In this document: positions 19,945-49,232 of the stretch, one piece after another | Layout of the letters: each line of letters opens with the position of its first letter | Numbering within the stretch: the first letter of the stretch is position 1 | Origin: Actinomycetota bacterium | GTDB lineage: Bacteria > Actinomycetota > Acidimicrobiia > Acidimicrobiales > RAAP-2 | Assembly: GCA_029850535.1 (NCBI GenBank) | Contig: JARCRU010000101.1 | Location: forward strand, 62,001 to 126,000 | Reading direction: 5' to 3' | DNA length: 64,000 bases | Program-made: the position numbers and the translations under genes | The notes under the pieces: model-generated | The model's database searches: none | Told to the model about the DNA's origin: nothing | Seen by the model: the letters and a program-made list of their open reading frames with translations, nothing else

Positions 19945-22641
19945 CTAGGCCGTGCGCGGAATCTCGCGCTCTTCGAATGTCTCAATGATGTCGCCGTCCT
20001 TGAGGTCCTGGTAGTCCGAGAGCCCGATACCGCACTCGTAACCGGCCGCCACTTCACGTGCGTCGTCCTTGAATCGACGCAACGACGTGATGGAACCCTT
20101 CCAGATGATGGTGCCCTCTCGCAAGAAGCGCACCTTCGAACCTCGCGTGATGACTCCTTCGCGCACGAAGCAACCCGCGATAGCCCCGATCTTGGGCACG
20201 CGAAAGACCTCGCGAACCTCCGCCTCACCGGTCACCACTTCCTCGTAGACCGGCGACAAGAGGCCGAGCATGGCCGATTCGATCTCCTCGATCAACTTGT
20301 AGATGATCTCGTAGGTGCGGATCTCCACCCCTTCGGACTCGGCCAACTCTCGACTGCGTCGATCCGGTCGCACGTTAAAACCGATAATGGTCGCCGTCGA
20401 GGCCTTGGCCAACTGCACGTCGTTCTCGGTGATGCCACCGACACCGCGGTGCACGATGACCAGTTTGACGTCGTCGCGCTCCAACTTTCGCAGCGATTCG
20501 GTGCAGGCTTCCAGTGACCCTTGGACGTCGGCCTTCAAGACGATGTTGAGCGTCGCGGTCTCGCCGCGCTGAATCTGTTCGAACAGGTCCTCCAGGCGCG
20601 CGCCCGACGCCGATGCCACGGGTTGGTGACCCACCAGTCGCACGCGCTGGGCTCGAGCCTCGGCGAGCGAGCGAGCGTTGCCCAGGTCCTGGGCCACGCG
20701 CACCTCGTCGCCCGCGAAGGGCGGCTCGGAGAAGCCCAGAATCTGCACGGGCGTCGAGGGCCCGGCCGACTTGATCTGCTTGCCCTGGTCATTGATGAGG
20801 GCCTTGACCTTACCGAAGGCGGCACCGGCAACCACGGGGTCGCCCACTCTCAACAGTCCCTGCTGGACCATCACGGTCGCCACGGGGCCGCGACCGACCT
20901 CGAGGTTGGCCTCGAGCACCGTGCCGGTCGCGCGACCAGTCGGTCGCGCCGTCAATTCGGCGAGCTCGGCCACCAGGAGCACCTGCTCGAGCAAGTCCTC
21001 AATACCCAGTCCCTGAAGCGCTGAGATCTCCACGGTAATCGTGTCGCCGCCCCACTTCTCGGGAACCAGTCCGTGTTCGCTCAGTTGTTGCAGGACCCGG
21101 TCGGGGTTGGCGTCTTCCTTGTCGATCTTGTTGAGCGCCACGATGATCGGCACCTCGGCGGCCTTGGCGTGGTTAATCGCTTCGACGGTCTGGGGCATGA
21201 CCCCATCGTCGGCCGCCACCACGAGGATCACGATGTCGGTGACTTTGGCCCCACGAGCACGCATGGCCGTGAAGGCCTCGTGACCCGGGGTGTCGAGGAA
21301 GGCGATGGGCTTACCCTGCCACTGGACCTGATAGGCGCCAATGTGCTGAGTGATGCCACCCGCCTCGCCGGCGACGACGTTGGTCTTGCGGATACGGTCA
21401 AGCAATTTGGTCTTGCCGTGGTCGACGTGTCCCATGACGGTCACCACCGGTGGGCGCGACGTCGCCTCGATTTCCTCGTCCATGTCATCTTCGTCGAAGA
21501 ATCGAGCCAAGAGCGCCGCTTCCTGCTGCTCACCCGGGTCCACCAATTTGACCGACGCGCCCACTTCGGCGGCGTAGAGCTCGATCATGTCGTCGGAAAG
21601 TCCCTGCACGGCAGTGACGATCTCCCCCTGGAGAAAGAGGAACCGAATGATGTCCGCCGCCGAACGATTCAACTTCGGACCAACGTCCTTGGCCGTCGAA
21701 CCGCGCTCGATGATGATGTCACCCTCGGGCACGGGTGCCGAGGAGGGCAACCACGTGGTCATCTGGGTCGGCTCGAGCTCTTCAACGTTGCGACGTCGAC
21801 GTCGAGTCGTCTTGCGCTGGGAACCTCGTGGTCCACCACCACCGCGCGGCGGTCCACCGCGGTTCGGACCGGTGGCGGCTCCGCCACTCGCGGGGGCTCC
21901 CGGTCGCGCTCCGAATCCGGTACCCGTCGGTCGTGAGGGTCCACCGGTTCGGGCGGGCCCGCCGGTCTGGGGACCCCGTGGGCTCATTGGACGAGGGCCA
22001 CCGGGTCCGGTGGGGCGACTCGAGGGACCGCCGGGTCCGCCGGGTCGACGAACTCCGGGCGGCGGCGGGATCGGACGACCCGAGGGGCTGATGGGACGTC
22101 CGGGCGGCGGCGGGATCGGACGACCCGTTGCGCTCAAGGGCGGTCGCATGGGGGTAGGCGTCTCACCAGGTTCCCCCGTGGTGGGCCGCTGGGTGGGGCG
22201 AATGGTCGTGGGTCCATCACTCGGTGTCACGCGCGGAGCGGCGGGCTTGGGAGCGGGAGCCGGTCGACTTCGAACGACGCGCGGTGCGTCACTCGCGGTC
22301 GCGGTCACTGTCGCGTCCTCACTCGCCGCGCGGTGCTCGGTGGCGATCGGCTCGACGACGGGCGTCGGCGTCTCCACGACCTGCGCGAGGGTGCCCTCGA
22401 CCGGTGCGTCGGGGGTGGCGTGGCGCGAGGACTTCGTCTTCACCGGCTCCTCGGGAGCGTGCTCACGACGCAGCCCTTCGGCGTCGGCCTTGCGGCGGAT
22501 TCGGTCCGCCTGGGCATCCTCGATCGAGGCAGAGGGGCTGGACGCGCCAATACCCAGTGTCTGAGCGAGCGCGAGCAACTCCTTGCTCGTTAGACCGAGC
22601 TCCTTGGAGAGCTCGTGTACCCGGATCTTCTTCTGCGCCAA
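19945..22641 (-). CDS. infB: Translation initiation factor IF-2
   Basis: GTPase that places initiator tRNA on the 30S subunit. I take the TTG at 22641 (898 aa, starting as [14 protein letters not shown]), with AAGGGA five bases upstream; earlier residues of the track ORF do not fit. An N-terminal IF2-N domain is followed by a long Pro/Gly/Arg-rich linker (about 140-290), a second IF2-N segment, G1 GHVDHGKT (404-411) and domains II-IV. A 28-base in-frame duplication occurs in the linker. Confidence 0.96.
22055..22127. repeat. Direct repeat of 28 bp, 45-bp period, inside infB linker
   Basis: The segment beginning CCGGGCGGCGGCGGGATC occurs twice without mismatch (22055-22082 and 22100-22127). 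The spacing is 45 bases, or 15 codons, so the repeat stays in frame and encodes two GRPIPPPPG units of the IF-2 linker. It looks like a local slippage duplication in a low-complexity region. Confidence 0.8.
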
Positions 22642-22686
22642 AACATTCCCTTGATTCGTGTACTCGCAGTCCGCGAGCACAGTTCC

Positions 22687-22953
22687 CTATTCTTCCACAA
22701 CTACAAACGTTTTCGAGTTCGTTGCCAGTTCCCTGAGCATCACTGCGTCCACTTCACCCAGCGAACATCGCAGGGCCCGCGACGCGTGAGCCAGATTGAC
22801 CCGTGCACCGCACTCACCTTCGCGACACCACCACACCCCTCGCCCGTCTCCTCGACCGAGATACCAGACACCCGTCGGGTGGCGACCCACTCGTTGCAGG
22901 TCAGCCTCCTGACGGCGCCGACGGCAGACCACGCAGGTCCGGACCGGGCTTAT
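22687..22953 (-). CDS. ylxR: YlxR (DUF448) RNA-binding/nucleoid-associated protein, start unresolved
   Basis: Small protein of the YlxR family found between nusA and infB in Gram-positive genomes. The core is clear: PVRTCVVCRRR, then VWWCREGECGARVNLAHA and a basic C-terminal half. No ATG, GTG or TTG precedes the conserved RTC motif until 23184, deep in nusA and with a non-YlxR composition. Options are initiation at ATA (22953), which overlaps the nusA stop with GGGGGA six bases upstream, a -1 slip on GGGGG producing a NusA-YlxR fusion, or GTG at 22932, which would delete RTC. Coordinates use the ATA. Confidence 0.75.
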   Translation of the reverse strand: MSPVRTCVVCRRRRQEADLQRVGRHPTGVWYLGRGDGRGVWWCREGECGARVNLAHASRALRCSLGEVDAVMLRELATNSKTFVVVEE

Positions 22954-24173
22954 GCCTGGTCCCCCGTGACATCGACTTCGAGCACTTCCAGTTGCGCACC
23001 GTTCTCGTCCATCACAACGACCTCCTCCACGCGCAGCGCGTGTCCCTCGCCATCGCTGACGACGTTGGCGGTCTCCTCGACCAGGGTGACACCATCGGTG
23101 AAGACCTCGGCGACGGGCTGGCCGTCGTGCACCTCGTGCACCTGGACCACCGTCTCGTCGACCACCACGCCCTCTTCGGTCCACACTTCGTCAACTACTT
23201 CCGCCTCATCTTCGTTCTCCGAGCGAATATCGATTCGCCAGCCGGTCAGACGCGCGGCCAGACGCGCGTTCTGGCCCTCCTTGCCGATCGCCAGGGAGAG
23301 TTGCTGGTCGTGGACGATCACCGTAGCGATCCCCTCTTCCTCGTTGAGTTGGACTTCGCGAACCCGCGCGGGCGCCAGGGCGGCCTGGATGAACTGAATG
23401 GGGTCGTCGCTGTAGGGAACCACGTCGATGCGCTCGGAGCGCAATTCGTTGGTGATGTTACGCACGCGCGAACCACGCGCACCCACGCAGGCCCCCACCG
23501 GATCCACCATGTTGTCGTTCGAGGCCACCGCAATCTTGGAACGATGCCCGGGCTCACGGGCCAACGCCTTGATCTCCACGATGCCGTTGGCGATCTCAGG
23601 AACCTCGATCTCGAAGAGTTTGGCGACGAGGGCGGGGTGGGTCCGACTCACCACGATCTGGGGACCCTTGTTGGTCTTGCGCACTTCGACGATGTACACC
23701 TTGACGCGCGCACCATGCTCGTAGCGCTCAAAGGCAATCTGTTCAGCCTGGGGCAAGAGCGCCTCCACGCGCCCCAGGTCCAAGAGCGTGTAGCGGTTGT
23801 CGTTCTGCTGCACCGTGCCCGAGACGATGTCACCTTCGCGATTGGCAAACTCCTCGTACATCTGACGACGCTGGATGTCACGAATCAATTGCATCAGGAC
23901 TTGCTTCGCCGTCTGGGCCGCGATTCGACCGAAGTCGTCCGGCGTCGCGTCCCACTCGCGGGTGACGTTGCCCTCGAGGTCGAGTTCAAGACCCCACACC
24001 TTGATCTCACCCGTCTCGGGGTTGATTTCAACCTCCGCGTCCTCCGCGGAGTCGGGTCGACGCTTGTAGGCGGCCAGGAGAGCATTGGCCAGCGCAATCA
24101 GCAACTCCCCCTCGTCGATGTTCTGGTCACGCGCAATCTGTCCGAGAGCTTCTAAAAATTCGAAGTTTGCCAT
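22950..24173 (-). CDS. nusA: Transcription termination/antitermination protein NusA
   Basis: RNA-polymerase-binding factor for pausing, termination and antitermination. The 407 residues comprise the N-terminal polymerase-binding domain, an S1 domain (EGDIVSGTVQQ), and two KH domains (GACVGARGSRVRNI and LAIGKEGQNARLAARLTGW). A Glu/Asp/Val-rich acidic tail of about 75 residues follows. The ATG has AAAGG seven bases upstream in the rimP end. The final codons contain GGGGG just before the TAA, relevant to the missing ylxR start. Confidence 0.96.
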   Translation of the reverse strand: MANFEFLEALGQIARDQNIDEGELLIALANALLAAYKRRPDSAEDAEVEINPETGEIKVWGLELDLEGNVTREWDATPDDFGRIAAQTAKQVLMQLIRDIQRRQMYEEFANREGDIVSGTVQQNDNRYTLLDLGRVEALLPQAEQIAFERYEHGARVKVYIVEVRKTNKGPQIVVSRTHPALVAKLFEIEVPEIANGIVEIKALAREPGHRSKIAVASNDNMVDPVGACVGARGSRVRNITNELRSERIDVVPYSDDPIQFIQAALAPARVREVQLNEEEGIATVIVHDQQLSLAIGKEGQNARLAARLTGWRIDIRSENEDEAEVVDEVWTEEGVVVDETVVQVHEVHDGQPVAEVFTDGVTLVEETANVVSDGEGHALRVEEVVVMDENGAQLEVLEVDVTGDQA

Positions 24174-24176
24174 GTC

Positions 24177-24671
24177 TTAGCCTTTCTTGCTCGTCATTGA
24201 GGAGGGTTTGCCCCGTGAGGGTGATGGCTTGGCTTCGCCACCCCACTGAAACACGGTGCGAGCGCGTTCGAGCGAGGAGATAGCGACTTCGACGTCACCG
24301 ACGGTCATGTCGGCCAGGGTGACGGTCGTGTCCGACACCGCGAGGAGCGGCCCCTCGAGGCGGCGCGTGGCCAGACCCTCGCGCTTCTCTCGGAGGGTGA
24401 CCACTTCACCCACCGCGGAGCGGAAGTGATCGAGGGTACGCAGCCGGCGCTCGAGACCCGGACTCGACACGTCGAGCGTGAATCGACCCGGAATCGGGTC
24501 GTTGAGGTCGAGCCACTCCGAAATCGCTCGGTTCGCCTTGGTGAGCGACTCCAAATCCACGCCACCGTCCCTATTGACCGTGACGCTCAAAGTTCCCTTG
24601 GCGAGTTCGACGTCGTAGAGTTCCAGACCGAGGTTGGATAGGAGCGAGCGCAATGGGGTCTCTAAATCCAT
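24177..24671 (-). CDS. rimP: Ribosome maturation factor RimP
   Basis: Assembly factor for the 30S subunit, normally upstream of nusA. The 164-residue product has the two RimP domains (LYDVELAKGTLSVTV and the LDVSSPGLERRL motif) and a basic serine-rich end. GAGGAGAGGC precedes the ATG. It is the first gene of the rimP-nusA-ylxR-infB-rbfA-truB-ribF run. The upstream gap contains a promoter and a terminator. Confidence 0.95.
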   Translation of the reverse strand: MDLETPLRSLLSNLGLELYDVELAKGTLSVTVNRDGGVDLESLTKANRAISEWLDLNDPIPGRFTLDVSSPGLERRLRTLDHFRSAVGEVVTLREKREGLATRRLEGPLLAVSDTTVTLADMTVGDVEVAISSLERARTVFQWGGEAKPSPSRGKPSSMTSKKG

Positions 24672-24699
24672 GCCTCTCCTCTCTATGCCACCAGCGTTG

Positions 24700-24735
24700 G
24701 GACAAAGAAAAAGCGCGGGCCCGAGGCCCGCGCTT
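24700..24735 (-). terminator. Intrinsic terminator between proS and rimP
   Basis: AAGCGCGGGCC and its complement form an 11-base-pair GC-rich stem with a three-base loop. On the minus strand it is followed by TTTCTTTG, the classical layout. It ends proS transcription and, because a promoter lies upstream of it, would also interrupt transcripts heading for rimP. Confidence 0.88.
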
Positions 24736-24773
24736 AAACGAGTCCAAACGTCCTGAGCGGACTGTCGGCTTCA

Positions 24774-24802
24774 ATTGTAGCAGTTAGCCCCGCGAGTGAC
24801 AA
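24774..24802 (-). promoter_or_regulatory. Sigma70-type promoter TTGTCA-N17-TACAAT upstream of rimP
   Basis: On the minus strand TTGTCA (24802-24797) and TACAAT (24779-24774) are separated by exactly 17 bases, the best promoter match I found in the window. The expected start near 24767 precedes the intrinsic terminator by about 30 bases and rimP by about 95. This suggests a rimP-nusA-infB leader with attenuation or readthrough. Confidence 0.7.
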
Positions 24803-24858: not shown

Positions 24859-26271
24859 TCAATACGACTTGGCAATTATGGCGATCAAACCCTCCTCGAG
24901 ATCATTGGCGGGGATCGATCCATCGCTTCGCTGCAGGCAACGCACGGTCATCGCCTCTGCCTTGAGACGTGCTTCCCCGGCCTCGCCCACCAAATCCCAG
25001 GTCAAGCGGGCGAAACCACTTTGGGCGGCGACGATCGCCTCATCGAGGCTCGTCACGTCGCTCGTGCGCGCATCGCGAAAAGCGGTGGCCGCTTGGTACA
25101 TGTCACGCTGGATGTCCTCGGCCAGTCGCAGTACCAGGGATGCCACCTCGGAGAGCGCCACGGGGAACTTCTCTCCCGTATCGCGACGCACGACCGTCAC
25201 GAGACCCTGCGCGAGGTCGCGCGGACCCACTTCGACGCGAACGGGAACGCCCTTCATCTCCCAGTCGGTGACGCGTCGACCGAAACTCCCGCGGCGTCCG
25301 TCATCGAGCTGGGCGCGCACTCCCCCGTGAGTCAACTCCTCGTGAAGTCGACGGCAGGCCGCCAGAATCTCCTCATCCTCGCGCACCGCCACTACCACGG
25401 CGACCCAGGGTGCCACGGCCGGAGGCAACACGAGTCCGTTGTCGTCACCGTGTGCCATGATCAAGCCTCCGACCAGGCGTGTCGAAGCTCCCCACGAGGT
25501 GGTGAAGCACAATTGCGCCTGGCCCTCCTCGCTCTGGTAGTAGATGTCGAAGGCGCGCGCGAAGTTCTGACCGAGTTCGTGCGAGGTAGCCATCTGCAGG
25601 GCCTTTCCGTCGCGCATCATCCCTTCACAGGTCATCGTGTTGGTCGCTCCAGCGAAACGTTCGCTCGGCGGCTTGATGCCGAGAAAGGTTGGAACGGCCA
25701 ATACCTTCTCGAGGAAATCGTTGTACACCCGCAGGTGGATCCTCATCGCGTAGGCCGACGCGTCCTCCGCGCTGGCGTGGGCGGTGTGACCCTCCTGCCA
25801 CAGAAACTCCGATGAGCGCAAGAAGAGCCGGGGACGCAGTTCCCAGCGCACGACGTTGGCCCACTGGTTGAGCAACAGTGGAAGGTCACGGTAGCTCTGA
25901 ATCCACTTGGCCATGAACTCGCCGATCACGGTCTCCGACGTCGGGCGCACGACGATGGGTTCGGCGAGTCGCTCGCCACCCGCGTGCGTCACCACTGCCA
26001 ATTCTGGACTGAATCCCTCGACGTGCTCGGCCTCCTTCGAGAGGTAACTCTCGGGGATGAAGAGCGGGAAGTAGGCATTCTGCGCACCCGCGAGCTTGAT
26101 GCGTCCATCGATCGCGGACTGGATACGCTCCCATATGGCGTATCCGTACGGCCGAATCACCATGGTGCCACGCACAGGACCGTTGTCGGCCATCTCTGCT
26201 TTGGCCACCACGTCTTGGTACCACTTGGGGAAATCCTCGCTTTGCGGGGTCAGAACACTCGGGACGGCCAC
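24859..26271 (-). CDS. proS: Prolyl-tRNA synthetase, archaeal/eukaryotic-type (type 3)
   Basis: Charges tRNA-Pro. The 470-residue class II synthetase lacks the bacterial editing insertion. It shows the type 3 landmarks WERIQSAIDGRIK, the motif 2 region RWELRPRLFLRSSEFLWQEGHTAH, TSHELGQNFARAFDI, and the characteristic C-terminal tyrosine ending in AKSY. GAGGAG precedes the GTG by four bases. A terminator follows. Type 3 ProRS occurs in a minority of bacteria, including some Actinobacteria. A tRNA-Pro(UGG) lies at 63365-63439. Confidence 0.95.
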   Translation of the reverse strand: MAVPSVLTPQSEDFPKWYQDVVAKAEMADNGPVRGTMVIRPYGYAIWERIQSAIDGRIKLAGAQNAYFPLFIPESYLSKEAEHVEGFSPELAVVTHAGGERLAEPIVVRPTSETVIGEFMAKWIQSYRDLPLLLNQWANVVRWELRPRLFLRSSEFLWQEGHTAHASAEDASAYAMRIHLRVYNDFLEKVLAVPTFLGIKPPSERFAGATNTMTCEGMMRDGKALQMATSHELGQNFARAFDIYYQSEEGQAQLCFTTSWGASTRLVGGLIMAHGDDNGLVLPPAVAPWVAVVVAVREDEEILAACRRLHEELTHGGVRAQLDDGRRGSFGRRVTDWEMKGVPVRVEVGPRDLAQGLVTVVRRDTGEKFPVALSEVASLVLRLAEDIQRDMYQAATAFRDARTSDVTSLDEAIVAAQSGFARLTWDLVGEAGEARLKAEAMTVRCLQRSDGSIPANDLEEGLIAIIAKSY

Positions 26272-49186: not shown

Positions 49187-49232
49187 AACCCGACGTCCCT
49201 TGGAAAGAATCCAAGGGACGTCGGGTTTTTTT
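49187..49232 (+). terminator. Strong intrinsic terminator after the HU gene
   Basis: AACCCGACGTCCCTTGG and its exact complement form a 17-base-pair stem around the loop AAAGAAT, followed by seven Ts on the plus strand. It is the strongest terminator in the window. It lies next to the convergent DUF4190-like gene stop. On the minus strand no T-run follows directly. Confidence 0.93.

Follow-up and report, generated by a model that had tools for sequence, protein, structure and literature searches.

The locus considered here raises the question of why an intrinsic terminator should stand between a promoter and the operon that encodes NusA. On the minus strand of the window (the whole 64,000-nt stretch of DNA that was analysed), a same-strand gene run includes proS, rimP, nusA, ylxR and infB; proS, identified by its Pfam match, lies upstream of rimP and ends at 24859. 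A sequence-only reading of this region had proposed that the promoter and the terminator form an attenuator, perhaps sensed by NusA, by analogy with the nusA operon of E. coli. The autoregulation of nusA by attenuation has been documented in few organisms. The features of the leader and of the operon are collected in Table 1.

Table 1. Positions of the leader elements and operon genes within the window.
Feature	Position	Strand	Basis
-35 hexamer TTGTCA	24797–24802	-	Read from the sequence; TTG of the -35 kept in relatives
Extended -10, TGCTACAAT	24774–24782	-	Sequence; TGnTAnnnT in 78/78 relatives
Predicted transcription start	24765–24767	-	Point where the conserved block begins
Genus-specific, nearly invariant 5′ domain of the leader, ACAGUCCGC..CAGGACGUUUGGACUCGUUU	24736–24765	-	Genus alignment
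Small hairpin GUCC-(GCUCA)-GGAC	24750–24762	-	RNAalifold; stem invariant, loop of 4–6 nt across species
11-bp terminator hairpin, GGGc..gCCC core of rimP-leaders	24711–24735	-	Sequence; 97.5% of cells paired; phylum comparison
T-rich tract UUUCUUU, interrupted by C (two further U counted in the stem)	24704–24710	-	Sequence
GUCCCAACG, 3′ strand of the terminator-flanking helix	24695–24703	-	Pairs with 24750–24742 (CGUUUGGAC), one mismatch here
AGGAG ribosome-binding site of rimP	24676–24680	-	Sequence
rimP (RimP_N, PF02576)	24177–24671	-	ORF and Pfam; ATG at 24671
nusA (NusA_N, S1 and KH domains)	22950–24173	-	ORF and Pfam
ylxR, between nusA and infB	within 22687–23184	-	Pfam
infB (IF2)	19945–22680	-	Sequence and place

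The promoter and the terminator hairpin ahead of rimP

The promoter had been described as TTGTCA-N17-TACAAT on the minus strand, and all its coordinates proved right. The -10 hexamer, TACAAT, occupies positions 24779–24774, is preceded by a TG and lies 17 nt from TTGTCA. It is the best of the three promoter-like sites in the window (10/12 plus TG); since 2.3 such sites are expected by chance, their number is uninformative alone. Stronger evidence comes from the 78 unique relative loci with enough upstream sequence for comparison: the extended -10 (TGnTAnnnT) ends 6–9 nt ahead of the conserved block (ACAG) in every one of them, a TTG -35 is found in 68, and the spacing is 17 in 58. Given this invariant extended -10 together with the conserved leader behind it, the promoter and the hairpin are both taken as real.

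The 11-bp hairpin with a T-rich tract that had been claimed ahead of rimP was found at 24735–24704, and the distances proposed between promoter, hairpin and rimP all agree with the sequence. The hairpin (AAGCGCGGGCC-TCG-GGGCCCGCGCTT) comprises 11 pairs, nine of them GC, and its end lies 39 nt from the rimP ATG. Stems of at least 9 bp with a T-rich tail occur three times in the 64 kb of the window and never in six shuffles, so the hairpin is not a product of chance. The two other strong hairpin and T-tract sites of the window lie at 49187–49227 (+) and 49918–49888 (-).

A genus-specific 5′ domain in the leader

The order of promoter, hairpin and rimP that had been read in the window is kept throughout the genus, with the same arrangement in all 35 loci (the window's own included). 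The 62-nt leader core, which extends from the predicted start through the hairpin, shows a mean pairwise identity of 89% between species, compared with 37% for the 46 nt upstream and 49% for the stretch after the terminator. Even the codon positions of rimP are each less conserved than this core (71, 79 and 45% identity at positions 1, 2 and 3). Conservation thus sets in at the expected start of the transcript, an argument for selection acting on the RNA.

RNAalifold applied to the 35 sequences yields two elements, a GUCC-loop-GGAC hairpin with an invariant stem and the terminator; in the stem of the latter, 97.5% of cells are paired. The GTCC/GGAC pairing occurs unchanged in 35/35 loci. A DNA operator was considered as another explanation for this GTCC..GGAC repeat; it seems less fitting than an RNA loop, because species differ in the length of the centre of the repeat (4 to 6 nt).

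The exact pattern of the 5′ domain was scanned over 84,980 genomes, one per species, and gave 82 matches, none of them before another class of gene. The rimP gene starts 75–103 nt downstream in at least 79 of them. Two matches have no rimP match, the leader being too near the end of the stretch; in another (L128), the leader is followed by a ATGGAATTTGAG start at the usual distance, and the automatic distance was misplaced. A covariance model of the leader detects the element in 93 of the 99 genomes of the genus, usually with a single strong match in each. The genomes sampled from the 132 other genera in the order gave no match.

An invariant leader sequence, a strong terminator and a single strong match per genome are also what an independent gene for a trans-acting small RNA would show, consisting of a promoter, about 60 nt and a terminator, with rimP expressed by leak-through only. 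Such a gene is very improbable, given that the element stands immediately before rimP in at least 79/82 loci and before no other class of gene, and that the wider hairpin family is tied to rimP as well.

Seven of the records that bear the genus's exact rimP-leader (L086, L092, L097, L099, L126, L131 and L140) are titled Acidobacteria/Acidobacteriota or Saccharibacteria, and their rimP is 56–81% identical to that of the window. For both of these reasons, either wrong titles or contaminated bins are probable.

The hairpin in the order and the phylum

Outside the genus, both in the remaining families of the order and more widely in the phylum, rimP is preceded by (A)GUGGGC-loop-GCCCAC(U) and then a T-rich tract. 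A GGG..CCC hairpin with a T tract was detected upstream of rimP in 76 of the 110 regions compared across the phylum, against 7 of 1100 shuffles (0.6%), mostly 25–35 nt downstream of a -10. The 5′ domain is absent from the order's other families and across the phylum. In the sister genus of the same family, ACGUGGGC..GCCCACGU and a T tract stand before rimP without the full 5′ domain. These data point to an old origin and a wide distribution in the phylum (Actinobacteriota) for the promoter-proximal hairpin ahead of rimP, to which a nearly invariant RNA domain is added in one genus.

The hairpin is missing from several genomes of the phylum, including large ones of 8–10 Mb (e.g., L155, L171 and L182), and some actinobacterial families with genomes of this size show none at all. 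In family f31 (L169, L177, L178, L183, L184 and L187), a hairpin of opposite polarity, (A)GCCCCU..AGGGGCU, is located before rimP. An inverse CCCg..cGGG motif of this kind has been described for a second terminator in some Gammaproteobacteria (PMC2965389).

The phylum comparison also bears on whether the hairpin merely terminates proS, which lies upstream on the same strand. This reading is rejected as scarcely credible: the promoter precedes the hairpin in all relatives, and most hairpin-bearing loci outside the genus, many genomes in all, have no recognisable proS upstream, so that the hairpin belongs to rimP.

A further alternative concerns the strength of the stop. Within the genus, the tail never varies in its first three U, but the remainder is poorly kept in some species; some relatives have a short tract (UUUCUCAUU, UUUUUAGCG), and there the hairpin might be a pause rather than a stop. 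On this view, the hairpin would serve for pausing or NusA docking and seldom terminate, delaying the polymerase for factor loading or ribosome coupling. It appears improbable, since a T-rich tract follows the hairpin throughout the phylum and termination has been observed at the corresponding place in Streptococcus agalactiae (PMC4448216). At the opposite extreme, the strength of the 11-bp hairpin means that termination could be largely constitutive.

Alternative pairings and the flanking helix

The sequence-only reading had also pointed to competing GTCC/GGAC pairings in the early leader. The pairing itself stands, as indicated above; its role as a switch is not supported. Pairing of the leader with the 5′ arm of the terminator was no better than in shuffled sequences (mean z of -0.7 in the genus and +0.4 elsewhere), and folds of growing leader lengths display the GUCCGC/GCGGGC pairing only as a folding intermediate. 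A classical antiterminator formed by the 5′ GUCCGC and the terminator arm is thus unsupported.

A different helix, formed by GGACGUUUGGAC and, after the U tract, GUCCGAACGUCC, encloses the terminator in many species. Its complementarity exceeds that of shuffles in the genus (mean z of -2.0) and not elsewhere; values below -2 are reached by 51% of the genus sequences, none of 11 in the order and 5% in the phylum. It was consequently discarded as a general trait of rimP-leaders. The helix is imperfect in the window, lost in L074, L080, L107 and L109, and has few compensated pairs (U-A to A-U or C-G). Being strong in the genus only, lost in some lineages and poor in compensated pairs, it is moderately supported as a secondary feature of the genus leader. 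In one sublineage (L074, L080, L107, L109 and L269), the leader is about 76 nt long and the ribosome-binding site directly follows the U tract, the flanking helix being gone.

The 3′ strand of this helix lies past the U tract, so it would form only in read-through RNA. By analogy with the E. coli operon, it may be an RNase III site, or it may protect or expose the RNA.

Similarity to known NusA sites was also sought. Local alignment of the leader with the rrn leaders of genus members (GCTCCTTGAAAACGGAAGAACGAGAGC) scored no better than shuffles, and mimicry of the rRNA boxA/boxC (the rrn NusA site) was accordingly dismissed. The KH-binding site of M. tuberculosis, which we take to be GUUUG.G.ACUC, was compared as well; the match in the leader is equalled by 12% of shuffles and was not used.

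Proposed mechanism

The best explanation for this element, and in our judgement a probable one, is a rimP-leader transcription attenuator in which termination is most likely raised by NusA. Transcription would begin at about 24767. A part of the RNA polymerases would halt at the U tract (about 24710–24703), releasing an RNA of about 60 nt, and the remaining ones would continue into rimP–nusA–ylxR–infB, the share of read-through setting the output of the operon. NusA carried by the elongating polymerase would most likely touch the emerging leader and hairpin and increase termination; plentiful NusA would thereby lower its own synthesis. In this genus, the sensor or the polymerase is probably contacted by the additional invariant 5′ domain; the flanking helix would take shape after read-through.

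The attenuation that had been proposed before the nusA operon is borne out by the promoter–hairpin–U-tract–rimP order kept in the genus, by the hairpin in 76/110 regions of the phylum and by a published family of rimP-leaders. The reading is therefore supported as more than an analogy with E. coli, yet it is of an already known kind, because the element fits that family. The choice of NusA as sensor in this organism follows the precedents; the S1 and KH domains detected by Pfam in the NusA encoded here were counted in its favour, and interrupted U tracts, such as the one found here, have been described for NusA-dependent terminators.

The same attenuator could respond to another sensor, with RimP, IF2, YlxR, a ribosomal protein or NusG acting on the 5′ domain. 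The constraint on the 5′ domain far exceeds what a generic NusA-stimulated terminator requires, the hairpin occurs without it in the rest of the phylum, and RimP was also considered by Naville & Gautheret (PMC2965389). The direct precedents name NusA, and a different sensor is possible but rather unlikely.

Returning to the attenuator as such, a bolder and only tentative proposal is that the rimP-leader of this genus has acquired a domain devoted to sensing (the ACAGUCC hairpin and the invariant GUUUGGACUCGUUUAA linker) that would bind NusA or another ribosome-assembly factor and set termination, with the flanking helix remodelling the RNA after read-through.

Comparison with known attenuators of the nusA operon

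In the metY–nusA–infB operon of E. coli, two terminators lie upstream of rimP and NusA influences its own expression. There, rimP is preceded by metY and by RNase III sites and several promoters; here, one promoter is predicted, and no tRNA separates it from rimP.

The B. subtilis leader is closer in design. According to the account of Mondal 2016 given in a 2025 review (PMC12288461), NusA autoregulates through NusA-stimulated termination in its own leader. An intrinsic terminator is located in the leader of the same rimP/nusA operon in both cases, and read-through in B. subtilis is reportedly controlled by NusA. The leader is about 180 nt long in B. subtilis (PMC2965389) and about 95 nt here.

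In S. agalactiae, RNA-seq of gbs0413-0418 revealed intrinsic termination 31 nt past the start, before rimP–nusA–infB, together with short terminated RNAs, and NusA feedback was suggested (PMC4448216). The stop was thus seen in RNA in that species, at 31 nt, whereas here it is predicted from sequence at about 60 nt.

The closest counterpart is the rimP-leader itself, presented by Naville & Gautheret in 2010 as the most ubiquitous attenuator (PMC2965389). Its general form consists of a GGGc..gCCC terminator stem and a U stretch, 4–130 nt from rimP, without a visible antiterminator, and NusA was named as the best candidate regulator (PMC2965389). The present leader likewise lies in front of the rimP–nusA–infB operon, both GGGC and GCCC fall within its hairpin (GCGCGGGCC-UCG-GGGCCCGCGC), the U stretch counted from the last GC pair is UUUUUCUUU, and no antiterminator is visible. 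No match in the leader reaches the cut-off of any Rfam family; RF01770 (rimP) gives none at E <= 10 in the leader and, among 20 related loci, none at E <= 1, which does not count against the broader motif because this model is named for Gammaproteobacteria only.

The two systems differ in the invariant 5′ domain of about 30 nt and the flanking helix that are added here. A larger conserved element beyond the terminator was not found in 2010 (PMC2965389); this absence was reported but does not define the family, so the 30-nt domain does not exclude the leader of this genus from it. The 5′ domain, invariant within the genus, and the flanking helix are what is new beyond the published rimP-leader. 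As a compact target of about 60 nt, the 5′ domain lends itself to identifying the factor that reads the leader, a question that dates from the naming of the family in 2010.
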